Shown: positions 9,937 to 35,861 of the stretch, in pieces
Position numbering within the stretch: the stretch's first letter is position 1
Layout: each line of letters starts with the position of its first letter
Source of the DNA: Candidatus Zixiibacteriota bacterium
GTDB lineage: Bacteria; UBP14; UBA6098
Reading direction: 5' to 3'
DNA length: 36,803 nucleotides
Assembly (NCBI GenBank): GCA_011388305.1
Contig: DSAF01000137.1
Location: forward strand, 1 to 36,803
Made by a program: the position numbers and the translations under genes
The notes under the pieces: model-generated
What the model was told of the DNA's origin: nothing
The model's input: the letters and a program-made list of their open reading frames with translations, nothing else
The model's database searches: none

Positions 9937-9938
9937 GT

Positions 9939-16185: not shown

Positions 16186-16212
16186 AATGTGCCCCCAATA
16201 TAGAAGGGCGGT

Positions 16213-16629
16213 TTATATAGAGCCGCCCGTCCCCGTGATATTGTTCTCGAAAGACCCCGCGAATATCCCATCAATTTTTCTGCGCGCGCGTGCAAAGAAT
16301 TCGTTCACCGAGAACTGCTCTCCGCTTTCACTCGGAATAGCCGGTTCTGCAAGGACTACGACTTCATCGAGCTTCGCCGCGCGGAGTCCGTAATCGGCCT
16401 CGGCGACACGTTCGAGCTGTTTTGTCTCAATTATTCTCACGATGTCGCGCTCGATTTCGTTGTTCTGATTGGTGAGCAGAACGAGAAACTCTTTATTGGC
16501 GTCCACTCTTTCCTCGATGCCAATCATGTAAGCCCTCTGTGCCACTAATGCCAGCGAACAAGCTATTATAAAAGCCCATAAAAACGGGATTTTCGCCTTT
16601 TGGATAACTGTATAAAATCTTTTTCTCAA
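16213..16629 (-). CDS. FtsL-like septum protein (single TM, coiled-coil)
   Basis: Position between rsmH and ftsI. Short N-terminal cytoplasmic stretch, one TM (FLWAFIIACSLALVAQRAYM), then a helical segment NKEFLVLLTNQNNEIERDIVRIIETKQLERVAEADYGL. No sequence-level certainty. Confidence 0.65.
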   Translation of the reverse strand: MRKRFYTVIQKAKIPFLWAFIIACSLALVAQRAYMIGIEERVDANKEFLVLLTNQNNEIERDIVRIIETKQLERVAEADYGLRAAKLDEVVVLAEPAIPSESGEQFSVNEFFARARRKIDGIFAGSFENNITGTGGSI

Positions 16630-16651
16630 AATCCCTCCTTGCCCTCGCTTG

Positions 16652-17578
16652 TCAAATCTTCACGGCCGCCCTAAGTTTTGCCGACCGCGCTCTGTTGTTC
16701 TCGCGGATTTCCTCCTCCGAAGGCCTCATCGGTTTTCTGAACGGCCTACGGATTCGCGGGAGATGCCCGCACCTGCAAACAGGAAGCTCCGGCGGACAGA
16801 TACAGCCCTTTTCTTCGCCTGCGAAGAACCGCTTGACGATTCTATCCTCCAGCGAGTGATAGCTGATAACGACAATAACGCCGTCCGGGATTAGTTCATC
16901 GAGTGCCGCGGAGAGTCCCCGCCGAAGCTCCGTTAGTTCATCGTTGATAAAGATCCTTATGGCCTGAAAGACGCGCGCCAAGTCGGCGTTTCGGCAGTTT
17001 GGAATCGCGTTTTTGACGGCTTTGGCAAGCTCTTCCGTCGTCTCGACTCCCGTCTTGTCGCGCATCTCGATAATCGCCCTCGCGACTCTCCCCGGATGGC
17101 TAACTTCGCCGAACTCCCGAAGAACCCTCGCCAACTCGCCAAATTCGACAGACTCGATGAAGCCCCGCGCCGAAATCTTCGCCTCGCCCATGCGCATATC
17201 CAATGGCGCAGAGGCGGAGAAACTGAAGCCGCGCTCCGGCTCGTCGATTTGCGGGCTACTCACTCCGAGATCGAAGAGCACTCCCGCCGGCACGCCAAAC
17301 CCGCTTTCCATAGCAATCTCCGCAATGTTAGCGAATCTGCCCTCGACGAATTTGACTCTGTCTCCGAAATGCGAGAGCCGCTTATAGCTTCTCTCGATTG
17401 CGCTCGCGTCGCGATCAATGCCTAAAAGAACAATGTTGCTATTATATTCCAAAAGGGCTTCGGCGTGTCCGCCGTCGCCCAACGTAGCATCGATGACAAA
17501 ATCCCCGGGGACATTACCGAGGAGATCGACGACCTCATTGCACATCACAGGATGATGAAACTCAATCGGCCGGTTCAT
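16652..17578 (-). CDS. rsmH: 16S rRNA (cytosine(1402)-N(4))-methyltransferase
   Basis: HHPVMCNEVVDLL, DATLGDGGHAEALL, FDLGVSSPQIDEPERGFSF, ISYHSLEDRIVKRFF. Confidence 0.98.
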   Translation of the reverse strand: MNRPIEFHHPVMCNEVVDLLGNVPGDFVIDATLGDGGHAEALLEYNSNIVLLGIDRDASAIERSYKRLSHFGDRVKFVEGRFANIAEIAMESGFGVPAGVLFDLGVSSPQIDEPERGFSFSASAPLDMRMGEAKISARGFIESVEFGELARVLREFGEVSHPGRVARAIIEMRDKTGVETTEELAKAVKNAIPNCRNADLARVFQAIRIFINDELTELRRGLSAALDELIPDGVIVVISYHSLEDRIVKRFFAGEEKGCICPPELPVCRCGHLPRIRRPFRKPMRPSEEEIRENNRARSAKLRAAVKI

Positions 17579-18062
17579 TCGCTTTTTCGCCGAATTTCTT
17601 GCGCCCCAAATTTGAGAAGAAGAGGTCTGCGATCTCGTCGTAATCTATTTCACTATTCGCACATGCCCGCTCGTAAAGCTCCTCGTTCCAGATTTCAACC
17701 CAAGAGCCAACGCCCAAAACGAGAACTTTGTCCTCGAGTCCGGCGAACTCCCGAAGATGCTTCGGGATGATGATGCGGCCTTGGTTGTCGAGTTGAACCT
17801 CGAAGATATTCGGAAACAATCTTCGCGAGAAGTTCACGACGCCTTTAGCGTCGTATTCCGGCTTGAACTCGCGGGCGGTCTTGAAAAACTCATCTGTGGG
17901 GACGAGCGAGAGGCAGTTGCCGGAGCCTTTGAGCATGATGAAGTTCCGGTAGTATGTCACCTTATCGCTGGGAGTCGTTTCTCTGTCGCACTCTCTTAGA
18001 GCGATGGGTATCTGCAGTCTGCCCTTTGCGTCGATTTTATGTTCGTAGCGTCCGTAAAACAT
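17562..18062 (-). CDS. mraZ: Transcriptional regulator MraZ
   Basis: MFYGRYEHKIDAKGRLQIP, first gene of the cluster. ATG at 18062 preferred over 18140, because the predicted promoter lies at 18112-18140. Confidence 0.94.
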   Translation of the reverse strand: MFYGRYEHKIDAKGRLQIPIALRECDRETTPSDKVTYYRNFIMLKGSGNCLSLVPTDEFFKTAREFKPEYDAKGVVNFSRRLFPNIFEVQLDNQGRIIIPKHLREFAGLEDKVLVLGVGSWVEIWNEELYERACANSEIDYDEIADLFFSNLGRKKFGEKANEPAD

Positions 18063-18111
18063 TTTCCCCACATTTAGCCTAAAATAGGGAGCGTCCTCCA
18101 CTTTCATTTCG

Positions 18112-18140
18112 ATTATAAGTCTAATTACCGGAAGAGTCAA
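18112..18140 (-). promoter_or_regulatory. Sigma70-type promoter of the dcw cluster
   Basis: Minus strand TTGACT - 17 nt - TATAAT (18135-18140 / 18112-18117), about 50 nt upstream of the mraZ ATG. Confidence 0.75.
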
Positions 18141-18420: not shown

Positions 18421-19662
18421 TTACAAACTACGCGAGGTAATGAAATGCTCCGCGTCATCGAGAGTGTGGACTTCGCCGGAAAGCTCGGCATATCTTAGTT
18501 CTGAGAGGATTGTAGCTACTTTTTCGGCGGGAATATCTTTCACAATTTCGCCGAGTGCACTGCCCCTTAAGAATCTGGGTGCGCCTAAATTCGGAAACCG
18601 CCGCGCGAGACGAGTCTCTAATCGAACGTCCGGAGCAACGAGCGCAGTCAGCTTCCGCACGGTAGAAAGTTCGGGCGAGTCCGCCAGCGCGGTCGATAGC
18701 GCTTTGGTTAAGTTGTCGAAGTCAAGCGCTAACCGAATGCCGTCGAGAATGCGCGAAATTTTTTCGCGCTCTGCCTTCGGGAATTTCAATCGTTCGAGTT
18801 TTTTATCAACTTCAATACGTAAGTCTTTATTTTTCAATTCGATAGGCGCGAGAAAAATTGCCCACATCCCTGCGCGGGAGATTCCGTGCACTGCCGCACT
18901 ATTGAGAAGCGCTACCCGACGAGCCAATTCGATGTCATCGCCATCGAACTCTTCGCCGAAAATCGCGCACCAAATGCCGAGCTTGATGAGCAGTTCCAAG
19001 CCATTCCCCGAATGACTGCACTCGAGGATCCCGCCGATTTCACCGCGAACTCTCTCTGCAGATAACGTCTTGACGCCGTTTGCGAGTTTCTCTATTGCAA
19101 CAGCGTCATCGGACGACAGCTTAAAATCCAGCCTTGTCGCAAAGCGCACTGCCCGAAGTATGCGAAGTTTGTCCTCCTCATATCGCCTTATCGGTTCGCC
19201 TATCGCGCGTATTGTTCTCGCTGACAAATCCGCGACGCCTCCCACGAGATCGACGACCTCCAACGTGATCGGGCGCACGGCGAGTGCGTTAATCGTGAAA
19301 TCGCGACGCCGAACATCACGCTCAAACGAGTCGGTCAGGCGCACCTCGCAGTGTCTGCCATCGCAGGATGCTTCCTCACGGAAGCGCGCGATTTCGATAG
19401 TTCCGTGCTCGGATGGCACACGATAGACGGAGTATTTGCAAAAGCCCCACGGTCGGGCGTTCGGAATTAGCTTCTCCAGTTCTTCGGACGGGCAAGCCGT
19501 GCACAAATCCACATCCGGAGAGGGAATTTCCAGAAGCGCATCGCGGACGGCGCCGCCCACGACGAGCGACTCAAATCCTGCGCGCTGGAGCTTTTCGGCG
19601 ATGTCGAGCGCAAGAATAAACTGAACCCGCGAGACCTCGTTCTCCGGAATGCGAAGCCTCAC
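18421..19662 (-). CDS. CCA tRNA nucleotidyltransferase / poly(A) polymerase family protein
   Basis: LVVGGAVRDALLEIPSPDVDLCTACP, RDFTINALAV, EEDKLRILRAVRFATRLDF. Family motifs clear; CCA-adding versus poly(A) polymerase specificity cannot be decided by eye. Confidence 0.88.
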   Translation of the reverse strand: MRLRIPENEVSRVQFILALDIAEKLQRAGFESLVVGGAVRDALLEIPSPDVDLCTACPSEELEKLIPNARPWGFCKYSVYRVPSEHGTIEIARFREEASCDGRHCEVRLTDSFERDVRRRDFTINALAVRPITLEVVDLVGGVADLSARTIRAIGEPIRRYEEDKLRILRAVRFATRLDFKLSSDDAVAIEKLANGVKTLSAERVRGEIGGILECSHSGNGLELLIKLGIWCAIFGEEFDGDDIELARRVALLNSAAVHGISRAGMWAIFLAPIELKNKDLRIEVDKKLERLKFPKAEREKISRILDGIRLALDFDNLTKALSTALADSPELSTVRKLTALVAPDVRLETRLARRFPNLGAPRFLRGSALGEIVKDIPAEKVATILSELRYAELSGEVHTLDDAEHFITSRSL

Positions 19663-20516
19663 TTGCCCGCCCCGATAATCGCGATAGCCCGCTTGACAGA
19701 ATTGCCCTCGGAGTCACTCGCGAAAACGATATACACGCCGGCGGGAAGGCGTTTTCCGCGGTCGTCTGTGCCGTCCCACTCAATGTTGAAGCCGACCGGA
19801 TCCTCCGGCCGCGCGAGAATTCGGTGGGAAACGCCGCTCCGGTCGTAAATCCTCACAAGGAGGCCGCTCCCCGGAAGTGCGACGCGAATATGCGCAACCT
19901 CCCTCGAAGGGTCGAACGGGTTAGGCGAGATTTCGATACTATCTTCCCCCTCCGGCTTGCCCCAAATAGCATTCGGGCAACCGGGAGTGCTCCCGGCAGG
20001 GCAACAGACGATCTCCGTCCCGCCGATAGTAGTCACCTCGGCGGAGATGTCGTATGTCATGCAATCGCCGAAGTCGGCCTTGACGTAGGTAATTAAATGC
20101 CGTTCCCTGCCCTCGGGGTCGTGGAGGCGAACGAGGTCGCGGTCATTGTTGAGAATCGGCCATCCGCTGGGACGTATGATAAATGCGCCCTCGCAAAGCG
20201 TGTCGGCGAAAATATCGGGGTTTTGGCAGAGGACGGCGAACTGCCCGGGATGCAGGGTGCAAGGGGGAATCGTCCGAAGGGCAAGCTCATCGCCGAGTTG
20301 CCAACCGGTCAAATCTACGGGAGAATCGCTTTGATTATATATCTCAACCCATTCCGGAAGCCCGCTCGACTGGATGAACATGAACTCGGTAATCGCAATC
20401 GGCCAGCCGGGGATAATGTCCTCGGCGGAAGCGACAAGCGGTATATATAATGTAAGGAATAGAATCGCGAATTGCGGAATAATTCGTCTGCCGAATTTGC
20501 GTTTTCGATGCATCAT
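19659..20516 (-). CDS. Secreted lamin-tail-domain protein with C-terminal FlgD/T9SS-CTD-like Ig segment
   Basis: Signal peptide, then AITEFMFIQSSGLPEWVEIYNQSDSPVDLTGWQLGDE (lamin-tail), and C-terminal ISPNPFDPSREVAHIRVALPGSGLLVRIYDRSGV...FNIEWDGTDDRGKRLPAGVYIVFA. Confidence 0.8.
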   Translation of the reverse strand: MMHRKRKFGRRIIPQFAILFLTLYIPLVASAEDIIPGWPIAITEFMFIQSSGLPEWVEIYNQSDSPVDLTGWQLGDELALRTIPPCTLHPGQFAVLCQNPDIFADTLCEGAFIIRPSGWPILNNDRDLVRLHDPEGRERHLITYVKADFGDCMTYDISAEVTTIGGTEIVCCPAGSTPGCPNAIWGKPEGEDSIEISPNPFDPSREVAHIRVALPGSGLLVRIYDRSGVSHRILARPEDPVGFNIEWDGTDDRGKRLPAGVYIVFASDSEGNSVKRAIAIIGAGK

Positions 20517-21234: not shown

Positions 21235-21642
21235 CTACTTCGAACGCGCGATTAGGTCGGCGATAATCGGTTCGAGACGCTTCGATGTCTCGCGTGCGGT
21301 GAGGCGAATCATGGCGATTGTCGTGGCGACATCGAACACGGCGACCAATATGCCGAAATCGGCCACGAGAGCGATATATATGTTAATCCTTTTCCCCTGA
21401 TGAAAAACGCCGGTGAATTCCTTTTCGCCCACGACCGATGCTAACGCCTGTGTGCTCGCGAAAGAGCCGGCGGTTAGTGCGGCCAGCGACTGAACATCGA
21501 CGCCGGCGAAATCGCCCCTGCGCGAGAGTATCATGCCGTTCTTGCCGACGAGCATCGCCAGCCGTGCGCCGCTTTCCTCGATGAAGCCCGTCAGGACGGA
21601 CTCCAGCTTAATCTTATCGCTCTCCAAAATGACTAAATTCAA
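21235..21642 (-). CDS. Roadblock/LC7 (MglB-like) protein
   Basis: 135 aa, GARLAMLVGKNGMILSRRGDFAGVDVQSLAALTAGSFASTQALASVVGEKEFTGVFHQGKRINIYIALVADFGILVAVFD matches the roadblock pattern. Directly downstream of the MglA-like gene, GGGGGAG Shine-Dalgarno. Confidence 0.88.
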   Translation of the reverse strand: MNLVILESDKIKLESVLTGFIEESGARLAMLVGKNGMILSRRGDFAGVDVQSLAALTAGSFASTQALASVVGEKEFTGVFHQGKRINIYIALVADFGILVAVFDVATTIAMIRLTARETSKRLEPIIADLIARSK

Positions 21643-21650
21643 AACTCCCC

Positions 21651-22250
21651 CTATTTCTTGATGTCTTTGAGGATTTTCGCCACGACCATGCGAGTGATAT
21701 AGTTCAACACCTCGAAAACGCCCTTGCCCTCGGTCGCCACGGCCTCGAACGAGGGGACTTTGAACTCCTCACGATTGAGAAGATATTCCATATACTCCGG
21801 CCTTGCCGCATCGGCGAGGTCGCGTTTGTTATATTCGAGGATATAGGGAATATCGCTAAGTTTGACGCCTTCTTCGAGAAGATTCTCTTTGAGGTTCGTG
21901 AAGGAATCGACATTGTCCTTCTGGCGCGACCACTGCGAATCCGCGACAAACACTACGCCATCGGCGCCCTGAAGCACGAGCTTTCGCGTGGCGTTATACT
22001 GCACCTGTCCTGGGACAGTATAAAGCTGAAATTTCGCTTTGAAGCCGGGGATAATGTCAGTCTCCAACGGGAGGAAGTCGAAATACAGCGTCCGGTCGCC
22101 CTCCGTAGCGATGGACACCATATCCGTGAGATTCTTGCTCATTATTCGCTGATGTATGTAAAGCAAATTCGTCGTCTTGCCGGACATGCCCGGACCGTAA
22201 TAGACGATTTTAACCGTTACCTCTTTATCGGCTACGCTAATCTGCGCCAT
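21651..22250 (-). CDS. MglA-like Ras-family small GTPase
   Basis: VKIVYYGPGMSGKTTNLLYIHQRI (P-loop), DRTLYFDFLPLET, YTVPGQVQYNATRKLVLQGADGVVFVADSQ, EYNKRDL (NKxD). GAGGGG Shine-Dalgarno. Confidence 0.93.
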   Translation of the reverse strand: MAQISVADKEVTVKIVYYGPGMSGKTTNLLYIHQRIMSKNLTDMVSIATEGDRTLYFDFLPLETDIIPGFKAKFQLYTVPGQVQYNATRKLVLQGADGVVFVADSQWSRQKDNVDSFTNLKENLLEEGVKLSDIPYILEYNKRDLADAARPEYMEYLLNREEFKVPSFEAVATEGKGVFEVLNYITRMVVAKILKDIKK

Positions 22251-22285: not shown

Positions 22286-24316
22286 CTAACTCTGTTTTTC
22301 GCCTAATGTCTTCTCGTCAAAACCGATTTTCTCGGATAGTTCCTCGGCTTCGGAAGCCCATTTGGAATCTTCACGGTTTTCGGGCATTTTCTCTATCAAT
22401 ATCTCCGGCGAAACCTGTTGCATAATGTCAGCCAGCGGAATCAGCAGGGTCAGCTCCTGAAGGTTTCTGCCCTGCTCGGCGGAGATGAAATTAACCAGCT
22501 CGATGGGCACTTGGTTGTATATGTAATCCGCCGTAAGCTCGATTTTTCCGGTCTCGAGTTGGTCAATAATCATCGAGAGCGGCACCTGCAACTTGTAATC
22601 CGAGCCGCGCCGAAGTAGCTTATTCAGCACAGCGGAAGCCTCGCTGGTTTTGCCGTAGTCGATAATCCTGCGAACGGAGATTGTCACCGTGTCCGAAGGC
22701 TTCTCCGCGAGGCCTTTACCGGCGGGCTTGGTCTTGCCTTTTTTATCGGTCTCTTTTGCCGGTGGCTTTTCGTCCTCGGCGGGTTCAAGAGGAAGGCCGG
22801 GGGCTTGTTCGGATTCCTCGTCCGGCATTCCCGGAAAATCCGGAAGCGGCGGGAGGTCATCGAGCGAGACGATTGGTTTCTCATCGAACGATAAATCCGG
22901 AAGGTCGCTATCGCCCAAAGACTTAAGGAACTCATCGAGATCGGGCTTTTCTTCTTCCGGCGGTTCGGCCTGCTCGTCCATTTCGTCGATAAAAGATACT
23001 TCTTCGGCAATTCCGTTGGGCAGTTCGATTTCATCCTTAGGAGGCTCCACCTCCGGAAGAGGCGGCTGTTCGTCGATTGGCGGAAGCGGCGGCGGCGGAA
23101 TATCGCCGATGAGTTCTTCGATATCGACTGCGTCTTCGGCGGGAGGTTCCTCGGGCAGAGGCGGTTCCTCCGGTTGTTTCTGAACTGGTGGCTCGCCTTC
23201 CGGTTTCTTGGATGGCATCTCGACTTCCAGTTCAGGAAGGCCAAGCTCGGGGGCCTCCTCTTTAGGCAACTCCTCGGCACCGGGAATTTCGAATGCGGGT
23301 AACTCGATTTCGTCCGGCAAAATCTCCGGTGAGGGCTGTTCGGGAGGCGTTTCGAGCTTTAGCTTCTTAGGCTCGGCGCCGAACATTTCAAGGGCTTCAT
23401 TCGGCTCATCGGGAAGTAGCGGCTTTATTTCCTCCGAAACTTCGAGTTCGGCAAGCTCTTTGAGTAGCTCGTCTCCGCTCTCGCCTGCGCTATCTTTGAG
23501 GGACTCCTCTTCGCCCAAAAGCTCTATAGGCTCAGGCTCCTTGTCGCCCTCGCCGAAGAAGCTCTTTCCGTTAAGCTCCCCGAGAAGTGCTTTGAGTTCG
23601 GCGTCCAATTCATCGGATGGTGATGGCTTTTGGGACTCGGGTGTTTCCGTCTTTGGTTTTTCTTGGGGCTTCTTCTCGGTCTCAAACTCCTCGGCCAAAT
23701 CCTCCAAGCCAAGCTCTTTCAGCAATTCGGAAGATATTTCGCCCGATGATTTCCCCTTCTCGACAATTTCCGATGCCTCTTCTTCAGAGCTAAAATCTTC
23801 GAGCCACTCCGGCGGCAATTTCGTTTTCGGCGGCGGAGGTGGAAGATTAGCGGTTTTGGGCTTGGCGGCTTCTTCTTTTTCGGCCTTCTCGCGCTCGACC
23901 TTTTCGGTTATCACCGCAACAAGTAATGGATATGCCAAACATGGCGAGAGAAGAACTTGAACGATGAAAACATAATTGTTTATATAAAGAGCATTGAAGA
24001 AGTATTCTCCGAAGCCTTCGTGTAGTTGGGCAAAGAGCATGAAAAGAACGGTGCCTATCATTATCGAGAAGAGCAACCTGAAAAAGAGGATTATCAAGAA
24101 GCCTTGAACCCAAAGATTTGGTTTGATTTTGTAATTTGAAAAGAGGAACAGGGACACGAGATAGACGACAAGCTCGAAAAGCACTTTAAAGCCTATTGGG
24201 AACTCCAGCACCGGAAGAGTTCTCGATGCGGAGAACAATGCCGCCGAGAGCGCCACTCCCACGAGGAACACTACCACGACTATAATCAATGAGGTTTTCG
24301 TGCTCAAGTTCTGCAT
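22286..24316 (-). CDS. Multi-TM membrane protein with about 380-aa Pro/Glu-rich linker and conserved-looking C-terminal domain
   Basis: Several N-terminal TM helices, linker such as PPLPEEPPAEDAVDIEELIGDIPPPPLPPIDEQPPLPEVEPPKDEIELP, then DTVTISVRRIIDYGKTSEASAVLNKLLRRGSDYKLQVPLSMIIDQLETGKIEL...TLLIPLADIMQQVSPEIL. First gene of the MglA/MglB operon. Confidence 0.8.
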   Translation of the reverse strand: MQNLSTKTSLIIVVVVFLVGVALSAALFSASRTLPVLEFPIGFKVLFELVVYLVSLFLFSNYKIKPNLWVQGFLIILFFRLLFSIMIGTVLFMLFAQLHEGFGEYFFNALYINNYVFIVQVLLSPCLAYPLLVAVITEKVEREKAEKEEAAKPKTANLPPPPPKTKLPPEWLEDFSSEEEASEIVEKGKSSGEISSELLKELGLEDLAEEFETEKKPQEKPKTETPESQKPSPSDELDAELKALLGELNGKSFFGEGDKEPEPIELLGEEESLKDSAGESGDELLKELAELEVSEEIKPLLPDEPNEALEMFGAEPKKLKLETPPEQPSPEILPDEIELPAFEIPGAEELPKEEAPELGLPELEVEMPSKKPEGEPPVQKQPEEPPLPEEPPAEDAVDIEELIGDIPPPPLPPIDEQPPLPEVEPPKDEIELPNGIAEEVSFIDEMDEQAEPPEEEKPDLDEFLKSLGDSDLPDLSFDEKPIVSLDDLPPLPDFPGMPDEESEQAPGLPLEPAEDEKPPAKETDKKGKTKPAGKGLAEKPSDTVTISVRRIIDYGKTSEASAVLNKLLRRGSDYKLQVPLSMIIDQLETGKIELTADYIYNQVPIELVNFISAEQGRNLQELTLLIPLADIMQQVSPEILIEKMPENREDSKWASEAEELSEKIGFDEKTLGEKQS

Positions 24317-24461: not shown

Positions 24462-27400
24462 TTATGGCAACGAAATATATCCGGTAATTACGATGCCAAT
24501 CTGTTGCGGGCCGTAGGCCGTGCTCGATGTCGGCGACGACCAGCTCATCCAGAGGTTTTCGGATGTGCCGCTCTCGATGTGCCATCCGCCGCTTCCGAAT
24601 ACTTCGCTTGTCGCCCATCTAATCGTCGGCAGAACCGCATCGGCGGTAAGCCCCCATGTAGTCGGAGGAATTGCCGAGTTGTTGAACTTCGCCTTCAGAG
24701 CGAACCTGTTGGCACCCGCGCCATAACCGGCAGTCCACGGACCCGAATTAGCTATATGCAATCCGAATACCAAAGCATGACTTCCGGTGTTGTGCATGGT
24801 CATCTTCTCCGAGGCATCCATCGCGGCTGTTTCGTTGAGTCCTACATCGCCGATTCGCCATGCGGCCGTATCTACGGAGAATTCCAGCACAACGATTCCC
24901 TGAAGGTATTCGGCGATGATGAGTTCCGCCGTATCCACCGGCGAGAACTCGAGCACAGGCTCCGTTCCACCGGCGCTCCATCTGTCGAAAGTCCAGAGCG
25001 TGTCGGCTCTTCCGTCTGGCGTTGAGACCTCGATATTCGCAGTCGCGCCGATGTCATACCAGCGCAATGCTTCGGAGACGTCCGTATAATATGTCGATTC
25101 GAACTTTATCCATCCAGTCGCCTGAAGCGGGTTCTTCTGGACGGTCAGCGCAAACTGGCGCTGGTATGTCGCCGTAAGGCTATCCGTGCCGGCGACAGGT
25201 CCGATATTGTGCGTCCTCGCGCCGCCATCCGACCAGCCCGTCCAACGGAAACGCCTGCCGGCATCGATGTTGTCGATATCGCTAGCAGAAATCTGATAGA
25301 CCGCGCCGGAGTCGAGCCACGCCGTTGCCGATGCGCTCGTCTCGCCCGAGAAGACCGTCCCGCCGACAGTGAGCGTGCCGAACGTATTCCAGTCGGGGTC
25401 TTTGGCGAAGCGGTATCTGTATTGTTTCTTCATGAATGCGGTGAATACGGCGTTTTCGCAAATCGGCCCGATGGTGTGCTCTATCGCGCCGCCATCCGAC
25501 CACGAAGTGAAGACAAACAGCGAATCGCCGCCATCGGCGGTGTCTGCGGGCGTCGATGCGATAGTGCCAATCCAGCATTTGGGGACCCAAATCTCGGCGT
25601 GGCTAGTGCGGTCGAAGCTCACGCCATCGACGACGAAGCCTCCGAAGTCCTGCGCCGGCGATTTGAAGAGGTCAATTCTCACGCCGCGAACGAACCTCGC
25701 CACGGCGGTTCTCGGCGCATCGGCCATATCGATTGTCGTGGCGGTGTCGCTGGCATCGGCGAATATCGCGCCCTCGGGAATCGAGAGCCAGCGGTCGAAG
25801 TAGTATGCCACGCCGCCGCTTTCGATGCGATTAGACACGACAATCTCCGCCTCGTCTGTGTAATAGCCCTCGGTGCCGAGAACTTCCGGCGCACCGCCAC
25901 CGCAACCGTCAACCGCGAGATTGAGCTTATATGCCGGCCCATCGAAGTGCCACTCTATCTCGCTCGCCTCGTCGATAACGAAGCTCGCTTCGTGGCCATC
26001 GCCCGAGCCGACGCTTCCCGTGCCGGTGTAGCTGGCGCATATCCACGCCATCCCCGGCGCGAATATATCGAGACTGTCGTTGGTTGCGTCGATTGTTGTG
26101 CCCGGCGTGAACCAAGTCGTCCCGACGGGCGGCCAAGGCGCGCCGTGCTCGGAGATTACCACCAACGGCACCATCGCCCCCCAGTTCCAAGTGATGCTCG
26201 TGGGTTGTGTGATGTCGAAGCTCACCGAATCGGCAGTGCCGCCGGGGGAAAGGTCGCCGGTGCCGAGATAGCCCGTGCAGTAGGAGCTTGTCAGCGGGTC
26301 GGGGTTTTCCACGAATGCGTGAACCGTCACGCCTGCATCGAACCAGTGCGTGCCCACCGGCGGAACGGGTGAATCCGCGCCGGAGTTGAACACGGTGAAT
26401 GCAAACTGTTGCACGAAGTTCGCCGTGAATGTCGTCTCGCTGACTGCAACAACCGTCCGCTCGCGCGATCCGCCGTCGCTCCAATTTTCGAAGCGCGCCC
26501 GCAAGCCCGCGCCCAGCGGGATTCTCTGTTTGGCGGAAATTACGTGGCTCGCGCCGGGGAGCCATGTCGTCACGAACGGCGACGGGTGCGCCGTGCCATC
26601 GACGATGACCGAGTCGCCGTAGCTATCGTTGCGAATGGTGACGGTCACCAGCTCATCGCGAAGGACAACGCCGTCCACGGTGCCGCTACCCTCGATGTCG
26701 AACACAGCCTCGTCGATCATTGTCGGGCTTATGTAAGTCCCACCGTCGGATACGATAAGGCCTATATAGATGAGCGTGTCCGGCGGGGCAACCGCTATTG
26801 GCGTCAATGAATAGGCTCTGACTCGGACGCCGGTGTCGGCCGAACGGGCGATAGGCTCTGCGCTGGTCGTCTCCCAGTCGATTACGGGGTTTTCGGCAAG
26901 TCCATGGAATGTGAGCATGTCGCCATCGAAGAAGAAGTCGAAGCCGATCGAGTCGAGCGGGACTGTCGGCAGATTCTCGTGGAGAATCACCGGAATCCAT
27001 ATCGTCGCGCCGGCCGAGGAGAACACCGAGTCAATCGGGCTAACCTCGAAGGTGCCGTATTCTGCGATTGCCGTCTCCGGCTCGGCGATAGCGATTGTCG
27101 TGGTGGAAGAGAAAATATCCGCGATGCCGTCGCCGCGCCACTTTCGGAAGTGATAGCGCGTCGCACCGTCATAAACCGGATTCTGCGCGGAGATGGGGAC
27201 ATCCCCCTGAAGATAAAATCCCGTCGCGATGAGAATCGGGTCGGCGAGGCCGCAACCCTCGGCGGAAAGATCGAGATGATAAAGCGTATCCCAGCGTGCG
27301 ATTTCCTCGATTGGTTCGGCGGGAATAGCGACGGCGGGATTGTCCGCGCCGATGTAGCTTCCCGCGCCGATGCCCTGCCAACTGTCAAAGCGATACAGAA

Positions 27401-30400
27401 CGGCAGGCTCGATGACTTCCTCCGGCGATACGGAGAACGCAACCATAGAGCCAGCGGGATGATAGCCTCCGCCGAAGACCGTGCCGTGGTCGCTATTGAC
27501 ATCTACCATATAATGTGTCTCGTAGTTCGCCGACTGAAGTATCGGCGCGTTCATCGTGCAACCGGCGGGATTGCCCGCGCCGGTGTAACTTCCCGCGCCC
27601 CAGCCAGTCCATCCGACGAACACCTGCCGAACGCCGTCGTCATCGATAATCGGGTCAACGACGGAGAATACTCTGTTCGCGCCACGGTCGAACCAGCCCT
27701 CGCCGGTGGCTGGCGATGGGCCGCCATCGACGGTAAGATAGTGTTGCGTTTTCCAGTTCGCAGTTTCGATGACGGGCGAGGTCATCGTTATTGAGCGGGG
27801 ATTCTCCGGGCCGGAATAGCTTCCTTCACCGGTTCCGCTCCATCCGGTGAAAACAAATCGCGTTCCGTCGATTGTGACGGTCTCAGGCTCGACGGAGAAG
27901 GTGGCGAGTTCTCCGGCGTCGAACCATCCGCCACCCTCGGGAAGGCCGTGGGGGCTGACGACGTCGAGACGATACTGCAACTGCCAAAGCGCCGTGATTT
28001 CCTCGGGCGAAGTGAGCATGAAGCTGTGCGGATTGTCCGCGATTATGTCGCCATCGATTTCCCATCCGGCGAATCTCCAGCGGATGCCCTCCGCCGAGTC
28101 GATTGTCGCCTCGACGGATATTTCCACGGTCGAACCGGCGGTGTGCCAACCCTCGCCGAGGGGCGTTCCGCGCGGAGAGTCTATCGTGACGAGATGCTCG
28201 GTCCGCCAGACAGCGGTTTGCGTGTTGGGCGTTGTCACATTCCAAGTGGCAGGGTTATTAGTGCCGGAATATGCGCCAGTCCATGAAGTAAATGCATAGC
28301 GCGAGCCTTCCGCGAATTCCACGAAGGGATCAACGACGGAGAATTCCGCCGGTGTCCCGTGGGGATACCAGCCCTCGCCGGTGGTCGCCGAGTGGACGCC
28401 GTTCACCGTGAGATAATGCCTTCGCGTGTATGTCGCCGTCTCGGTAATCGGCGCGTTCATCGCGGCGGTCGCGGGGTTGTCCGCGCCGGTGTATGAGCCG
28501 TCGCCCTCGCCAACCCATCCGGCGAATGTCCATTCCGTTCCGCCGGAGACCACCGTCTCGTTGGCGATGCCGAACTCGGCATCCGCGCCCTCGGGGTAGA
28601 AACCTTCGCCGAAAGGCTCACCGTGCAGGGCGATTACCGTGAGTTTATGCTCGGTTTCGTAATGCGCGGTGAAAGTCGTATCGGTGAGCGGCGCGACACT
28701 GTGGAAAAGCGCTCCGCCATCCGACCAGTTGCGCCAAGCCAGACGGGTGCCGCCGTATCCAATCGTCTCGAATGTGCCGATGGAATGCGATTCTCCGGCC
28801 ATCCATGTCGCCTCATAAGGCGATGCCTGTTGGACTCCATCGACCAGAACGCGGGCGTCTTCGGCGGTGTAGTCCGTTTGGACGGTGACTTCGATTGGCG
28901 CGCTGATGATGAGAGTTCCCGGATGCGTGTTCGCGCCGGACACATCCGAGGAGAAGTTTTGAAGTAAGATTGTATCCACCGCCGCGGTAGTCTCGGTCGA
29001 AACGAAGCGCGCGACGCAGAGCACCACCGGTGGATAAACAAGGCTCGGGCTACGGTTGCCATAAACAATAAATGTGCTATCATCAAGAACGATATGAGTC
29101 AATGTGCTCCATGCTATGTCCGGCCCTGCCGAGAGCGAGACGAAATCGACAAGCCTATGCGGGAAACGGACTTCGAACTGCATTGTCATCATCGTGAGAG
29201 CGAAGGGGTTATAGAGTGTAATCGGCACGTCGAACACCTCGCCAGCATCTACGAACATCGTCTCCGGCGGCGAGACCTCGAAAGCGGAGTAGTGCGCGAT
29301 GAGGCTCAAAGAAGTATCGACATGAACCAGCGTGTTGTTCGAGAATTCGTCGTCGAAAGTGCCGCCGCTCCAATGGGAGAAAGATAGCCTGCTACTTCCG
29401 GAAGTAACCAACGACTGTGCATATATTTCTTGCCAAGTATTCTTGGGATGCCATCCCTCGCCCTCGAATTCGGGCAACCCGTAAGCGCCGTTGTCGGTGA
29501 TGTCCACGTAAAAGCGAAGCTCCCAGCTCGCGCGCTGGACTATCGGTGAGTTCATTTGGCATGTCGCGGGATTGTCCGCGCCGTTATAGGCGCCGTCGCC
29601 AATGCCCGCCCAGCCGTTGAACCACCATGCTTTGCCGTCGATGACGACTACGCTCTCCGGCTCGATGTGGAACTCGGCGAATTCGCCGGCATCATACCAA
29701 CCCGCGCCGAAAGCCGTGCCGTGGGCGCCTGCATCGACGGTCAGGTAGTATTGAAGTGACCATTGTGCCGTCTGTGTTATCGGCTCGTTGACTGTGCAGA
29801 AGGCCGCGGAGTCGCCGCCCGTGTATGCCTCGTCGCCCTCGCCGCCCCAACCGTCGAAAACCCAGCGGATGCCCGCCGTGGAGTCGATGATTGTGGGCGA
29901 AATCGAGAACCATGCGGTGTCGCCTTCGTCATACCAGCCGCCGCCGGTAATAGTTCCCCTGCCGCCATCGAAGACCATGACCATGTGTTGTGTGTGCCAA
30001 AGCGCGGTCTGCGTGACCGGAGACAGCGGGTGGAGCCAAAGCGAGTCCTCTTCGCCGGTGTATGAGCCTTCGCCGATGCCCTCCCAGCCCGTGAAGACGA
30101 ACCTCGATGACCCCTCGACGACCTCCGTCGGGCGAATTTTGAGAACAATCGAGTCGCCGCGGGCGCACCAGCCGTCGGTTTCGGGAGTGCCGTGCGCGCT
30201 CTCCACGCGGACGCGGTAGAGCGTATCCCATTGCGCTATAATATCTTTCGGCGAATCAACGAGAATCGAGCATGGATTGGCCGCGCCGGTGTAATCGCCG
30301 CTCCAACCGGTGAAGATGTAGATAATCGAGTCGCCCAGCGCGATGGAATCCGGCGCAACCGCTACGAATGTGCTGTCGCCTTCATCGAACCAGCCGTCGC

Positions 30401-33400
30401 CGGAGACTGTCCCGTGCGCGGTTTCTGCCGTCACGCGATGTTGCAGAACATAGAGCGCGGTGATTGTCGTGTCGGTGGTCGGGCGAATCTCGCGCCCGCG
30501 TTCGGGGCTGTCCTCCCAAGTGTCCCAGCGATGGCGGCTCCCCTCCCCCTCCGGCACGAACTCCGGCGCAACCGCGAAGTGCGGGCTTGATATGACCACC
30601 GGAATCGTCGTGCCGACGGGATAAGTTACATCGTCGAGATATATGCTGTCCGCGGTGGGGCTGGCGAGAGTCAAATCGACCAAGTCCGAAACGATGACAG
30701 CCCTGTTGCCGCCCAGAAGGCCGAACTCCGGCGAGTTCACGCGGACGATGTTCAGCTCGAATGGTGCGGTTCCGCCCGATGTTGCCTGCATATTCACGCA
30801 GAACAAATCGACGAAGTCCGAGACCACGAACGGCTCGGCGCGATATGCTTGAATATCCACGCGGATAACGCCGCCGCCGAGGTTCGTCGCCGTTGCGCTA
30901 AGGTAATCCCACGCGATTCCGCAGGCAGATATTTCGTCGAATGCGAGAATTCCGCCGCCGAAAGTAATCGACATATCGAGAGTGTCCAAGTCGATGGGCG
31001 CGCCGGAGATTGCTTGAACAGCAACGCTCGCGACCTCACCGACCGATGTCCAGACGGAGTCCGTCGCGCCGATTGCGGCCTCCGAATAAACTGCCGTCGC
31101 GACGAGAGCGGAGTTCACGAGCACAGTCGTGGCAGGCTCTGTGGAGTCGGCGAAAGTGCCGCCGGTCCAGTGGCTGAAAATCTTTGGGTTCAAAGACCTC
31201 GCGGGGTCTGTCACAATCGGCGATGTCGAAATCTCCGTCCATGTTCCGTGCGGGAACCAGCCCTCGCCAGTCATGGCGGGCACTGCCGAGCCTGTGCCGA
31301 CGAAGTCGAGGCCGAGATAGTGCGACTCTTGCCAGTTCGCCGTCTCGCGAATCGGCGCGTTCATGACCACCGACGCGGGGTTCGCCGCGCCGGAATACGC
31401 GCCCGCGCCATCGCCGGCCCACGACTGGAAGACGAATTTGTCGCCGCCGACAATAAGCGATTCCGGCGTCACGGAGAAGTGCGCCGTCGCGCCCTCGGGA
31501 TACCAGCCCGAGCCGGAGACCGCGCCGCGCAGGGAGACAACCTCGAGCCTGAAACGGTTCTGGTGATTTGCGGTGAAAACCGTGTCCGTCGTCGGGCGGA
31601 CATAGTGCGAGCGAAGCCCGTCATCGCTCCACGAGGCGAAGTATTTGCGATGCCCGGGCGAAACGGCCTGGAACTCCTGCACCGCGATGAGATGTTCGCT
31701 TCCGGCCGGCCACTCAGCCATGAACGGCGAATCTCGAAGGACGCCGTCAACAAGGACTTTTCCGCCGAAATCGGTGCGAACGACGACGGAAATCGTTTCC
31801 GTGACGCGAAGGACGCCATCGAGGGCGACCGCGCCGAAGAGGTCGAATCGCGGCGAGTGGAAGTCCAGCTCGTGAAGGCCCGAAGTCGCTGATACATAGA
31901 GGATTAGCTTGAGAAGAGTGTCGCCGTCGGCAATTGAAAATTCGGTTGCGTTGCGCGCGAAAACCGTTGCGGTAAAACCGTCGTCGCTGATATCAAGCTC
32001 GTCCCAAGCGAAATCCGCGGGGACGACGCTATTAGGCGCGATTCCCGCCGGAAAATCGAAGTCCCAGCCGATACTGTCCGCCGTTCTGCCCTCGCCATGG
32101 AAGATAACCGGCACGGCGATGAACGCCTCCGGTTCCGCCAAAGTGACGGCGGGCGGCCCGAACAGCGAGTTCCCCGTTTCAAGGGAATACACCGCCGTGA
32201 GCGCCGTCGGCCGCTCGACGAGCACAGTCGTAGTGTGGGAGAGGCGGTCAGCGATTGGCGCGTCGCCGCTCCAATAAAGGAAATAGTATGTGTCGCCGCC
32301 GTCATCGACAAACTCATCGGCCTCGATTGTCGTCCAAACGCCCTCGGCGAACCAGCCTTCGCCATCGAGCGCCGGGATGGCGGGCGTTCCGGAGTGCGCA
32401 AGCGTCAACTCGTGGAATGCGCTCCACTGCGCCGTCTCGACGCAAGACTCGTAAATCGTCATCGTCGCCTCGCGCAGAGGCCCGCTGTATGCGTCATCGC
32501 CCTCGCCAAGCCAGCCGTCGAAGAGGTAGTAAGAACCCTCATAATGCACCGAGTCCGGTGAGACATCGAAAGGCACGACCGTGCCGGATGCATACCAGCC
32601 ATCGCCGGTTGTAATTCCATGCTCTGAAATGACATGGAGTCGATAATCTATGTCGAAGTCTGCGGTGAATGTCGTATCAGTAAGCGGAGCAACAGCATGA
32701 ACTATCGCGCCGCCATCCGACCACTCGTCGAAAGTCATGCGGACGCCCGCCGATGGATACTGCGGTGAAGGCACGCCGATAGCCCGCTCCTCGCCGCGAT
32801 GCCACAGCGCTTCATAGGACGCGGAGTGTAGAACACCGCCCACAGTGACGTTGCCGAGAAGCGGCGTTGTCGTGACGGTGACAGAGACGCGCCCGAGGAT
32901 GTTCACCCAGCCGGAGTCGGGGCTTGCCGTCTCGATGTCGTGGCCGCAATCTCCGGCGATAACTTGCGAGACGCCGTCCGCGCCGGCACGGACGTTGAAG
33001 TGAAGGTTCGCCAGAATTTCCCCCGAATCTACCGACAGCGGCGAAGGAGATTCGGCATAAGTGTATATCTGCCCGGAACTTCCGGATGAGAGGTTCGTGC
33101 CGGTAAGTGTCGGCCATGCCAAGTCCCCGACTGTGATTCCGGAATATGAGAGCTGAGTATTGTCGAAATAGAAGTTGAGCGAAATCGTCGAGAGAACCAC
33201 GGCCGTAGGGATGTCGAGAGCCACGGGAATGGTGATGCTTCCCGAGGGCACGCCTAAAGTCGTCTCCGGCACTGCAAGTTCGAACGCGAAAGGCTCGTCG
33301 GCGTAAATCGCGATAATCGTGTCCGGCGAAGTGACGAAGGCCTCCGTTGAGTGCGAGAACCTGTCGGCAATAATGCCACCCGACCACCACGCGAAGAACT

Positions 33401-35861
33401 TGGTTTCCGCGCCGTCGGCGACGGTGGCGTCGGTCTCGATGGCAGTCCACTCGGAGTCGTCCTGCCAACCCTCGCCGGTCATGGCCGGGACGCCCGCGCC
33501 CGTGCCCGTGAATTCCAGCTCGAGCCAGTGTTGCGCCTGCCAAACCGCCGTCTCCACGATGGGCGTCATCATGACGCAGGTCGCGGGGTTGTCCGTGCCG
33601 GTGTATGAGTCATCGCCGGTGCCCTCCCAGCGGACGAAAATGTCCCGCGAAAGCCCGTCGGTGATAACCTCCGGATCGACGGAGAACTCGCGCTCCTCGC
33701 CGCGCTCAAACCAGCCACTACCCTCGGTCGTGCCAAATGGCGAAACGACATCGAGATAGAGTAGCGTATCGAAAAGCGCCGTGAAAGTGCTGTCGGAAAT
33801 CGGCTGAACATTGTGGAATCTCGCGCCGCCGTCCGACCAGCCGACAAAGCGCGCCATCTCGCCCTCGCCAAGCGGATTGAGCGAATCGACGCCAATCTCG
33901 CGAACCTCCGCGCCAACCCATGTGTCGGAATATGGCGCGGGGAAAGGCGTGCCGTCAATCCAGACGGAGTCGCCGCCATAGTCGGTGGTGACGGTGATGT
34001 CGATTTCCCCCGGAACAATTTGCACCTCGCCGGGATATGTCTCGGCGCGCTCGAAAGCGTATTGGAAATCGCTGAAATCTATATCGACAGTGCCCGTCGC
34101 GTCGATGTTTGCGCGCATGTGATAATAGAAAATCGTGTCCGGCACATCGATGTGCATCACCGAGCCGGGAACATCGCCGAAAACAGAGATAGTCCCCGCT
34201 CCGGGCGTTGCCTCGAGCCGCGACCAAATCACGCTCGAATTTATGAGTCCTAAAAACTCTAACTTGTCGTCGTCATAAGTCATCGTGAAGCGGAAGCTGT
34301 CCGTCGGGAAGGGGATGGTCGCATCGATGAGCGCGGGCAGAAGGAATTCATGCGCCGGCGCGACAATCATGTGATCCTGCGGATAGACCTCCAGTTCAGG
34401 ATCGACAAGATAATTCGCGATAATTGTCCGCGGCATATCGGGATTGACGAACCAAGTTCTTGCGCGCGTGCTGTCACGAAGGTGTCCCGCGGCATCCGAC
34501 CAATGAGTGAAGAAATACCACGCGCCTTCGACGAGTAGCGATTCGGCGGTGATTACCTCCACGGAGTCGTGGACGAACACCCAACCCTCGCCGATTTGCG
34601 CGGGAACGCCCGTGCCGGTGCCGGCGTAGTCCAGCTCGAGCCAATATGCCGTGTCATAAATCGCATGCTGGTGAATCACCTCGCGCATCTGCACCCAAGC
34701 CGTGTCCGAGGAGCCGGTGTATGAGCCGAGGCCTACGCCCTGCCATCCTCGGAAAATATGGCGCGTTCGGGAGAGAGGGCCGGTGAACACCGTATCAGGA
34801 CTGATTTGAATGCGCGCCCATTCGCGCGGATTGAACCAAACGCTGTCCGGATGCACCGGCGACGGAGTGGAATACGCCGGCGCGTGGATTATCAACTGGA
34901 ACATCGTGTCGAAAAAGGCCGTGTAGATCAGCGTGTCCGGCGAAATATGGATTTCGTGGCGCTTGTTGCCGCCGTCAGACCATGAGTGCCACATATGTTT
35001 AATGCCCGGGAACGGGTATTGTATGCTGTCCGTGTCGATAATGTGAAGTTCATCCTCATACCACTCTCCAATATAGGGCGAGTCGGCACGAATCGAGTCG
35101 TCGATAGTGACGATGCCGCCTTCGAAGTCGGTGCGCACGGTGATGTGCGTCGAAGTGTAATATGTCACGCGGATTTTCTGGTTAATCCTCGGCGTAAAGC
35201 GGACGAAGGCCTTGCCCGTCTCGGGAGTAAATTGCGTGACGCGGACACCGATAGCGAACCATCCCTCGCTCAACTGATTGTTGATGTCTGCCAATGCATC
35301 GGCGTTGAGGTGCATGGATACTTCGCCTGTTGCGTTCACGGCTTTTGCACCAAAATAGGTCTTATTCCCAATATCGCCGCCAAGGGCGTCGTTCATGTTG
35401 GTTAAATCCAGAAGGCGCGCCGACGGGGGCGTTGTGTTCGTCAACATGTCCTCGATGGCGATTAAAACCGGGCCGCCCTCGGAGTTATAGACCGAGTCCA
35501 CATCGAGAATGAGGCTGACGTCGTTAATATAGGCCGTGTCGGGAATGTCGTTGATATTGAACTCGAGAATTATTACGCGCTTCTCCGCACTGCCTGACAT
35601 GAGACCACAACCGTCGCGGTCTTCAAAAGCCCAAAGTGTGTCATAAGGCGTTGGAAGTAGCGCAACTGTCCAGCCGCAATACTGCGGAAATCCGCCTATA
35701 TCGTCGCCGAGACACCGCGACCAAGAGCTATAAAGCATTGCGGGGCTTTCGCGAACCGTGACGGGAATGTCGATGGTGATCGGCTCTGTGCCTGCGCCGA
35801 TTGATGTAAGAGCAAACAGGCAAATAGTTGCCAAGACAATAAACGATAACACTTTATGCAT
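24462..35861 (-). CDS. Giant secreted modular repeat protein (3799 aa): cohesin-like segments alternating with InlB-B-like/PEGA-like repeats
   Basis: Signal peptide MHKVLSFIVLATICLFALTSIGAG. Repeated WSDGG..H, SYTGADNP(A)T..M..PI.ETA.W and GEGW motifs (divergent InlB B-repeat type), and six cohesin-like segments of about 130 aa. AGAGG Shine-Dalgarno before the ATG. Confidence 0.88.
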   Translation of the reverse strand: MHKVLSFIVLATICLFALTSIGAGTEPITIDIPVTVRESPAMLYSSWSRCLGDDIGGFPQYCGWTVALLPTPYDTLWAFEDRDGCGLMSGSAEKRVIILEFNINDIPDTAYINDVSLILDVDSVYNSEGGPVLIAIEDMLTNTTPPSARLLDLTNMNDALGGDIGNKTYFGAKAVNATGEVSMHLNADALADINNQLSEGWFAIGVRVTQFTPETGKAFVRFTPRINQKIRVTYYTSTHITVRTDFEGGIVTIDDSIRADSPYIGEWYEDELHIIDTDSIQYPFPGIKHMWHSWSDGGNKRHEIHISPDTLIYTAFFDTMFQLIIHAPAYSTPSPVHPDSVWFNPREWARIQISPDTVFTGPLSRTRHIFRGWQGVGLGSYTGSSDTAWVQMREVIHQHAIYDTAYWLELDYAGTGTGVPAQIGEGWVFVHDSVEVITAESLLVEGAWYFFTHWSDAAGHLRDSTRARTWFVNPDMPRTIIANYLVDPELEVYPQDHMIVAPAHEFLLPALIDATIPFPTDSFRFTMTYDDDKLEFLGLINSSVIWSRLEATPGAGTISVFGDVPGSVMHIDVPDTIFYYHMRANIDATGTVDIDFSDFQYAFERAETYPGEVQIVPGEIDITVTTDYGGDSVWIDGTPFPAPYSDTWVGAEVREIGVDSLNPLGEGEMARFVGWSDGGARFHNVQPISDSTFTALFDTLLYLDVVSPFGTTEGSGWFERGEEREFSVDPEVITDGLSRDIFVRWEGTGDDSYTGTDNPATCVMMTPIVETAVWQAQHWLELEFTGTGAGVPAMTGEGWQDDSEWTAIETDATVADGAETKFFAWWSGGIIADRFSHSTEAFVTSPDTIIAIYADEPFAFELAVPETTLGVPSGSITIPVALDIPTAVVLSTISLNFYFDNTQLSYSGITVGDLAWPTLTGTNLSSGSSGQIYTYAESPSPLSVDSGEILANLHFNVRAGADGVSQVIAGDCGHDIETASPDSGWVNILGRVSVTVTTTPLLGNVTVGGVLHSASYEALWHRGEERAIGVPSPQYPSAGVRMTFDEWSDGGAIVHAVAPLTDTTFTADFDIDYRLHVISEHGITTGDGWYASGTVVPFDVSPDSVHYEGSYYLFDGWLGEGDDAYSGPLREATMTIYESCVETAQWSAFHELTLAHSGTPAIPALDGEGWFAEGVWTTIEADEFVDDGGDTYYFLYWSGDAPIADRLSHTTTVLVERPTALTAVYSLETGNSLFGPPAVTLAEPEAFIAVPVIFHGEGRTADSIGWDFDFPAGIAPNSVVPADFAWDELDISDDGFTATVFARNATEFSIADGDTLLKLILYVSATSGLHELDFHSPRFDLFGAVALDGVLRVTETISVVVRTDFGGKVLVDGVLRDSPFMAEWPAGSEHLIAVQEFQAVSPGHRKYFASWSDDGLRSHYVRPTTDTVFTANHQNRFRLEVVSLRGAVSGSGWYPEGATAHFSVTPESLIVGGDKFVFQSWAGDGAGAYSGAANPASVVMNAPIRETANWQESHYLGLDFVGTGSAVPAMTGEGWFPHGTWTEISTSPIVTDPARSLNPKIFSHWTGGTFADSTEPATTVLVNSALVATAVYSEAAIGATDSVWTSVGEVASVAVQAISGAPIDLDTLDMSITFGGGILAFDEISACGIAWDYLSATATNLGGGVIRVDIQAYRAEPFVVSDFVDLFCVNMQATSGGTAPFELNIVRVNSPEFGLLGGNRAVIVSDLVDLTLASPTADSIYLDDVTYPVGTTIPVVISSPHFAVAPEFVPEGEGSRHRWDTWEDSPERGREIRPTTDTTITALYVLQHRVTAETAHGTVSGDGWFDEGDSTFVAVAPDSIALGDSIIYIFTGWSGDYTGAANPCSILVDSPKDIIAQWDTLYRVRVESAHGTPETDGWCARGDSIVLKIRPTEVVEGSSRFVFTGWEGIGEGSYTGEEDSLWLHPLSPVTQTALWHTQHMVMVFDGGRGTITGGGWYDEGDTAWFSISPTIIDSTAGIRWVFDGWGGEGDEAYTGGDSAAFCTVNEPITQTAQWSLQYYLTVDAGAHGTAFGAGWYDAGEFAEFHIEPESVVVIDGKAWWFNGWAGIGDGAYNGADNPATCQMNSPIVQRASWELRFYVDITDNGAYGLPEFEGEGWHPKNTWQEIYAQSLVTSGSSRLSFSHWSGGTFDDEFSNNTLVHVDTSLSLIAHYSAFEVSPPETMFVDAGEVFDVPITLYNPFALTMMTMQFEVRFPHRLVDFVSLSAGPDIAWSTLTHIVLDDSTFIVYGNRSPSLVYPPVVLCVARFVSTETTAAVDTILLQNFSSDVSGANTHPGTLIISAPIEVTVQTDYTAEDARVLVDGVQQASPYEATWMAGESHSIGTFETIGYGGTRLAWRNWSDGGALFHSVAPLTDTTFTAHYETEHKLTVIALHGEPFGEGFYPEGADAEFGIANETVVSGGTEWTFAGWVGEGDGSYTGADNPATAAMNAPITETATYTRRHYLTVNGVHSATTGEGWYPHGTPAEFSVVDPFVEFAEGSRYAFTSWTGAYSGTNNPATWNVTTPNTQTAVWRTEHLVTIDSPRGTPLGEGWHTAGSTVEISVEATIDSAEGIRWRFAGWEIDGDIIADNPHSFMLTSPEEITALWQLQYRLDVVSPHGLPEGGGWFDAGELATFSVEPETVTIDGTRFVFTGWSGTGEGSYSGPENPRSITMTSPVIETANWKTQHYLTVDGGPSPATGEGWFDRGANRVFSVVDPIIDDDGVRQVFVGWTGWGAGSYTGAGNPAGCTMNAPILQSANYETHYMVDVNSDHGTVFGGGYHPAGSMVAFSVSPEEVIEPAVLYRFDSWQGIGAGSYIGADNPAVAIPAEPIEEIARWDTLYHLDLSAEGCGLADPILIATGFYLQGDVPISAQNPVYDGATRYHFRKWRGDGIADIFSSTTTIAIAEPETAIAEYGTFEVSPIDSVFSSAGATIWIPVILHENLPTVPLDSIGFDFFFDGDMLTFHGLAENPVIDWETTSAEPIARSADTGVRVRAYSLTPIAVAPPDTLIYIGLIVSDGGTYISPTMIDEAVFDIEGSGTVDGVVLRDELVTVTIRNDSYGDSVIVDGTAHPSPFVTTWLPGASHVISAKQRIPLGAGLRARFENWSDGGSRERTVVAVSETTFTANFVQQFAFTVFNSGADSPVPPVGTHWFDAGVTVHAFVENPDPLTSSYCTGYLGTGDLSPGGTADSVSFDITQPTSITWNWGAMVPLVVISEHGAPWPPVGTTWFTPGTTIDATNDSLDIFAPGMAWICASYTGTGSVGSGDGHEASFVIDEASEIEWHFDGPAYKLNLAVDGCGGGAPEVLGTEGYYTDEAEIVVSNRIESGGVAYYFDRWLSIPEGAIFADASDTATTIDMADAPRTAVARFVRGVRIDLFKSPAQDFGGFVVDGVSFDRTSHAEIWVPKCWIGTIASTPADTADGGDSLFVFTSWSDGGAIEHTIGPICENAVFTAFMKKQYRYRFAKDPDWNTFGTLTVGGTVFSGETSASATAWLDSGAVYQISASDIDNIDAGRRFRWTGWSDGGARTHNIGPVAGTDSLTATYQRQFALTVQKNPLQATGWIKFESTYYTDVSEALRWYDIGATANIEVSTPDGRADTLWTFDRWSAGGTEPVLEFSPVDTAELIIAEYLQGIVVLEFSVDTAAWRIGDVGLNETAAMDASEKMTMHNTGSHALVFGLHIANSGPWTAGYGAGANRFALKAKFNNSAIPPTTWGLTADAVLPTIRWATSEVFGSGGWHIESGTSENLWMSWSSPTSSTAYGPQQIGIVITGYISLP

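Follow-up and report, generated by a model that had tools for sequence, protein, structure and literature searches.

A 36,803-nt stretch of DNA (the window) carries, on its reverse strand, a gene (24462–35861) for a secreted multidomain protein of 3799 aa (410 kDa, pI 4.3), raising the question of how such a giant is built and what it serves. The genome of origin (2.15 Mb, 217 contigs, 92.5% complete) belongs to the candidate phylum UBP14, of which we know no cultured member. Literature searches for UBP14 gave, among the matches listed, unrelated deubiquitinase and receptor papers, and those for UBA6098 gave none. We infer, with slightly better than even confidence, that the protein is a UBP14 cell-surface stalk, in which a rod of repeats displays six cohesins for adhesion or partner binding and a C-terminal tail shared with other giants provides the anchor.

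Domain organization of the giant protein

The reading frame spans 3799 codons with zero internal stops, in agreement with the single uninterrupted ORF described in the initial annotation, and AGAGG upstream of the ATG is a plausible ribosome-binding sequence. Residues 1–24 (35790–35861; all features of the protein given below lie on the reverse strand) resemble a signal peptide without a lipobox cysteine, as assigned by eye and from a Kyte-Doolittle profile, in which the top hydrophobic window is aa 3–7 and no window elsewhere is strongly hydrophobic. The following N-terminal domain (aa 25–240, 35142–35789) is conserved in an alignment of 13 orthologues and found no match in Pfam and PDB profile searches; an undescribed carbohydrate-binding module within it would be compatible with this result. 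Many long antisense ORFs lie opposite the gene (24504–34253, forward strand). They were not counted as genes and probably result from its high GC content and repeats.

The module series reads signal; N-terminal domain; [R1 R2 R3 COH] four times; R1, four R2, R3, COH; R1, six R2, R3, COH; R1 R2 R2 R3 R1 R1 R1; and the C-terminal domain (CT), where COH denotes a cohesin. The tally is 10 R1, 16 R2, and 7 R3 (33 B-repeat-type modules), 6 cohesins, and two end domains, or about 41 domains. Self-comparison of the protein yielded off-diagonal periods of 364–372 aa (super-module) and 74–79 aa (single repeat), matching the period of about 370 aa that had been expected. As proposed earlier, R1, R2, and R3 follow a fixed order, but the regular super-module applies to the first four cohesins only; before the fifth and the sixth, R2 occurs four and six times, respectively. 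Pfam recognized Flg_new_2 and Cohesin in the whole protein and nothing else: the scan detected no carbohydrate-binding or catalytic family, no S-layer family, and neither RTX calcium-binding repeats nor Bap-type Ig domains, the marks of a type I secreted RTX/Bap-type adhesin.

Six segments of about 130 aa, which align as one family, are cohesins. An iterated HMM (per-domain E of 5e-23 to 2e-35) placed them at aa 490–615 (34017–34394), 860–988 (32898–33284), 1236–1353 (31803–32156), 1599–1705 (30747–31067), 2194–2319 (28905–29282), and 2938–3066 (26664–27050). The upper bounds of these nucleotide ranges, where the domains start, fall within about 20 nt of the six starts proposed in the initial annotation, whose designation "cohesin-like" is borne out by three kinds of match. 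Pfam PF00963 (Cohesin) exceeded the cut-off in the whole-protein scan over aa 874–965, in cohesin 2 (E = 3.4e-7), and gave weak matches for two of the six segments taken singly. A profile of the six segments searched against the PDB found the scaffoldin B cohesin 4ums as its best match (E = 1e-4). An AlphaFold2 model of aa 484–860, computed with 13 orthologous sequences, reached a pLDDT of 92 and a pTM of 0.64; in Foldseek, its cohesin 1 matched many cohesin crystal structures (E down to 1e-7), with TM scores (target) of 0.74 to 5nrm and 0.76 to 3ul4. The fold was thus modelled for cohesin 1, and the other five are assigned by sequence homology. The copies within the protein are about 13–30% identical to each other. 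Three other cohesin-bearing ORFs are present in the same genome.

The intervening blocks were likewise delimited by iterated HMMs. R1-R2-R3 blocks occupy aa 251–484 (34410–35111), 632–853 (33303–33968; E down to 2e-28, and included in the AlphaFold2 model), 1005–1225 (32187–32849), and 1369–1592 (31086–31757). They are followed by R1-R2x4-R3 at aa 1739–2191 (29289–30647), R1-R2x6-R3 at aa 2338–2935 (27057–28850), and R1-R2-R2 at aa 3084–3306 (25944–26612), which leads into the tail. PF18998 (Flg_new_2, the divergent InlB B-repeat) exceeded the cut-off for the whole protein in four stretches (E = 9.6e-16), the best being aa 1811–1879. Most single repeats alone fall under Pfam detection, and R1 repeats taken singly have no PF18998 match. 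In hhalign, the R1, R2, and R3 profiles matched one another with probabilities of 99.4–99.7%, figures flattered by members shared between the profiles after iteration, compared with about 1% or less against the cohesins. By this comparison, the three repeat types are subtypes within a single divergent B-repeat family. The earlier likening of R2 and R3 to Flg_new_2 therefore holds for the part of the repeats matched by PF18998, while R1 is not the separate family it had seemed. Strands in the AlphaFold2 model run continuously over the R1/R2 and R2/R3 boundaries (residues 208–223 and 285–302), which suggests a stiff B-repeat rod, its geometry being provisional at this pTM.

Near-absence of dockerins in the class

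The true cohesin fold raises the possibility of a non-cellulosomal scaffoldin, as proposed for 'Ca. Stygibacter' or ANME archaea, whose cohesins would take up secreted enzymes or other surface proteins by their dockerins or dockerin-like modules and so assemble a complex at the surface. Scaffoldin-like giants with repeated cohesins have been published from uncultured phyla (PMC8542988; PMC9012536), and the sequence divergence among the present cohesins would allow different partners. However, published systems have several dockerin proteins, whereas none of the 17 genomes of the class (completeness of 90% or more in nine) contained a dockerin (PF00404) over the cut-off. A single weak match below it (E = 6e-4), in the congener G001, speaks for a scaffoldin, and the lack of any Pfam family for carbohydrate binding or catalysis in the giant speaks against one. 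We consider a scaffoldin of this kind unlikely, though a serious candidate. The absence of above-cut-off dockerins also argues against a cellulosome, which we rejected on the negative dockerin search in the 17 class genomes; a carbohydrate-binding module is likewise absent from the Pfam scan of the giant. This picture would change if the class had dockerin-like partners that have diverged beyond the reach of Pfam.

The initial annotation had offered a giant surface adhesin or a scaffold for recruiting partners. The scaffold loses support because dockerins are almost absent from the class, and the adhesin appears to be the better description. Multi-cohesin proteins in bacteria nearly devoid of dockerins constitute a clean case, in which what such cohesins bind becomes directly testable. 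A 1903-aa frame in G001 (L056) has a weak dockerin-like module, cohesin-like segments recognized by eye, and an FlgD-type C-terminus.

The shared tail and the possible route of export

The C-terminal domain CT (aa 3653–3799, 24465–24905), delimited by alignment and ending in the residues '..LP', represents an unnamed family; Pfam, NCBIfam, and PDB profile searches returned nothing credible for it. Each class genome has 1 to 17 CT matches, mostly C-terminal, in hosts that range from 220-aa secreted proteins to giants. Directly before CT lies a tail block, R3-R1-R1-R1 (aa 3313–3652, 24906–25925; iterated HMM), and this R3-R1-R1-R1-CT arrangement ends eight other B-repeat giants of the class (1453–3640 aa; in one, the last module was called R3). 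They are encoded on contigs C46, C28, C62, and C1 of the same genome and, in four or more cases, in relatives. Their N-terminal parts look different from each other; at a threshold of E 0.01, the four paralogous giants of the same genome matched nothing in Pfam, and a PDB search with the N-terminal portion of one of them gave no credible match. Several tail-sharing giants recur in many genomes at near-constant lengths of about 2660–2770, 2250–2300, and 1460–1480 aa, as judged by comparing lengths alone. The tail is probably a common base for anchoring, assembly, or export, and together with CT it sets apart, within UBP14, a hitherto undescribed family of exported giants.

Genes for such giants can adjoin each other, as observed in L087 (3036–9803 and 9884–17905; 2255 and 2673 aa) and L090 (3305–11389 and 11634–19709; 2694 and 2691 aa), where both members of each pair carry B-repeats and the R3-R1-R1-R1-CT tail. 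At the other extreme, small secreted proteins of 220–246 aa, forming an unnamed family, combine a short motif region with CT (L076:1339–2079, L089:5950–6627, and L088:7183–7845). Outside the class, CT-like domains occur in clusters of neighboring genes (L082:4632–12291 and L083:2384–5040), and the three CT-like proteins of L082 have differing N-terminal parts.

All 17 class genomes encode Omp85, indicating diderm cells. SprA_N was found in 14 of the 17 (E = 9.5e-27 in the genome of the window) and PorV-family matches in every one, so that export by a type IX secretion system (T9SS) is possible. The T9SS translocon exports giant adhesins elsewhere, such as SprB. The protein might accordingly be T9SS cargo comparable to this gliding adhesin, with CT as a new T9SS signal, perhaps tied to the adjoining MglA-like GTPase and roadblock genes. 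The position of CT at the C-terminus of proteins with different N-terminal parts agrees with such a role, as does the presence of the MglA-like and roadblock genes nearby in the genus. On the other hand, the giant has no NCBIfam match to a known T9SS C-terminal sorting domain (e.g., TIGR04183), and the top-scoring PorV-family matches, at about 800–860 aa, are larger than PorV itself. Among 193 genomes searched, CT-like domains were also detected in five outside the class, three of which (G087, G101, and G186) lack SprA, which weakens CT as a T9SS-only signal. In G015 (family f4), the giant gene is followed by mraZ-mraW and the MglA/roadblock pair is not beside it; a link to MglA is thus no general feature. 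Finally, an FlgD_ig-like C-terminus, seen by eye on other exported proteins of the same genome (e.g., on contig C54), may be a second export signal. We regard the T9SS-cargo proposal as improbable, although worth keeping in view. It is compatible with the surface stalk that we prefer, from which it differs by naming the export route and a motility role.

The neighborhood of the gene comprises several further loci on the reverse strand. Adjoining it downstream, and conserved there in the genus, is a gene (22286–24316) for a 676-aa protein that begins with membrane helices, continues in a long, probably disordered stretch rich in acidic residues and proline, and has a conserved C-terminal region; it matched no Pfam family. 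The MglA/Arf-like GTPase and roadblock/LC7 pair (21235–22250) lies just downstream of the giant in this genome and in G001. The locus 19659–20516 encodes a secreted protein that has a lamin tail domain and ends in an FlgD_ig-like domain. Further downstream, an almost complete dcw cell-wall and division cluster (759–18140) extends from mraZ to ftsZ in the usual order.

Fixed architecture and comparison with known systems

The giant protein was found in 13 of the 17 class genomes, its own included, as eight complete ORFs and five cut by contig ends. With start codons of the orthologues chosen by script, the complete copies measure 3799 aa here and 3830 (G001), 3801 (G002), 3821 (G006), 3838 (G008), 3722 (G011), 3730 (G012), and 3729 aa (G015) elsewhere. 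Module order and count are identical in all eight, which represent four families, and the truncated orthologues show the matching series over their available length; the exception in scoring is one first-block R2 that was called R3 in G001 and G002. Copies from the genus share about 60% identity, and those from different families average roughly 27–39% per domain type. In long repeat proteins, the number of repeats usually changes fast through gains and losses. The layout thus seems to be held fixed by selection, and the constant domain count implies that inter-cohesin spacing and total length matter; some 41 domains kept constant over four families at this level of identity point to strong selection on both. 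Three genomes (G007, G010, and G013; 85–98% complete) have no match to the N-terminal 1000 aa of the giant, implying that not every member of the class needs it, and a fourth (G009) has one repeat-type match to this region.

In comparisons across families, conservation is lowest in the cohesins (27% identity vs 35–39% for the repeats; Mann-Whitney p = 6e-5); among members of the genus, cohesins and repeats do not differ significantly (p = 0.13). Faster divergence suits recognition modules carried on a constrained rod, and it also fits relaxed constraint. A tree of 71 cohesins grouped them largely by position, with 9 label changes against a minimum possible of 5 and a shuffled mean of 46, indicating that cohesins at most positions had diverged from one another by the time the families separated; with only 130 columns, the deep forks of this tree are poorly resolved, and the G006 copies fall outside their groups. 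A profile of the super-module, searched against 386 genomes, matched 11 outside the class, in the listed matches over either the repeats or the cohesin and never both. The five genomes outside the class with a CT-like domain do not overlap with those in which the repeats were matched, so that, within this sample, the full combination is seen only in this class.

Constancy of length and order over four families might also be expected of a structural envelope component (an S-layer-like coat, sheath, or spacer), whose cohesins and B-repeats would be mutually contacting beta-sandwich blocks and whose CT would polymerize or anchor. The occurrence of CT both in small stand-alone secreted proteins (220–250 aa) and at the ends of giants is in line with this proposal, as is the resemblance of the AlphaFold2 model of CT to pilin domains and the TasA fibre. 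That model is poor, however (pLDDT 67), and its Foldseek matches, with pilins and TasA (8aur) among the top ones, are weak (E of 3e-3 to 0.1); no match of CT to the pilin or TasA structures was obtained by sequence profile. The Pfam scan found no S-layer family, and absence from several relatives would be odd for an essential coat. We consider an envelope component doubtful, and rank it below the two alternatives above. Short-read metagenome-assembled genomes often mis-join repeats, and collapsed repeats had been named as a way in which the ORF could prove spurious, but collinear orthologues with the same domain order in 13 separately assembled genomes rule out misassembly, and cohesin copies of such low mutual identity are too diverged for assembler collapse, leaving next to no likelihood for an artefact or a functionless, drifting repeat array.

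According to the surface-stalk reading that we prefer, the protein, with its signal-peptide-like start, would cross the outer membrane of a diderm cell, and the shared C-terminal tail would hold or assemble it at the surface. The B-repeats would form a stiff rod, along which the six cohesins would stand as ligand- or partner-binding modules. These cohesins would act in adhesion to other cells, a substrate, or the cell's own surface, and not as cellulosome sockets for dockerins. More tentatively, the giant stalks of UBP14 may all share one new anchoring or export tail, and the six cohesins, at fixed spacing, may bind a non-dockerin partner, which would make the protein a molecular ruler or a multivalent adhesin of a new kind; we rate this extension as possible yet rather improbable.

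No paper in the literature we searched combined cohesins with InlB B-repeats, an absence that is not proof of novelty. The architecture, which the initial annotation had not recognized as a described one, accordingly found no counterpart in the literature searched, and the nearest systems each share a part of it. Scaffoldins such as CipA, ScaB, and the 3755-aa scaffoldin-like protein of the Cloacimonadota 'Ca. Stygibacter', which comes with dockerin enzymes and carbohydrate-binding modules (PMC8542988), are likewise large secreted chains with several cohesins, and the modelled fold matches CipA and ScaB cohesin structures. In contrast to them, the giant belongs to a class without above-cut-off dockerins, has no carbohydrate-binding or catalytic module, and separates its cohesins by B-repeat blocks in a domain order that is invariant across families. 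With InlB B-repeat (Flg_new/Flg_new_2) surface proteins it has in common secretion, the match to PF18998, and long arrays of B-repeat-like units of about 73 aa; it departs from them in its interspersed fixed-position cohesins, its diderm host, its three ordered subtypes, and single repeats that mostly escape Pfam. SprB-type T9SS adhesins of Bacteroidota are repetitive surface proteins of several thousand residues in SprA-bearing hosts. The giant resembles them in size, repetitiveness, and the SprA of its genome, but has different repeats and no known T9SS sorting domain, and its export by this route is putative.

The TMEM132/coherin family offers a parallel (PMC6030884): its members, for which a role in adhesion is inferred, couple a cohesin to beta-sandwich domains in tandem, in an ancient and conserved arrangement, and have no detectable dockerin partner. 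They are membrane proteins of animals, each with a single cohesin and three Ig-like domains, and whole-protein homology is not claimed. The cohesin and dockerin proteins of ANME archaea are also multi-cohesin and come from anaerobes not known to degrade cellulose (PMC9012536). Unlike the giant, their scaffoldin-like proteins themselves carry a dockerin and vary between relatives, whereas the UBP14 protein is constant.
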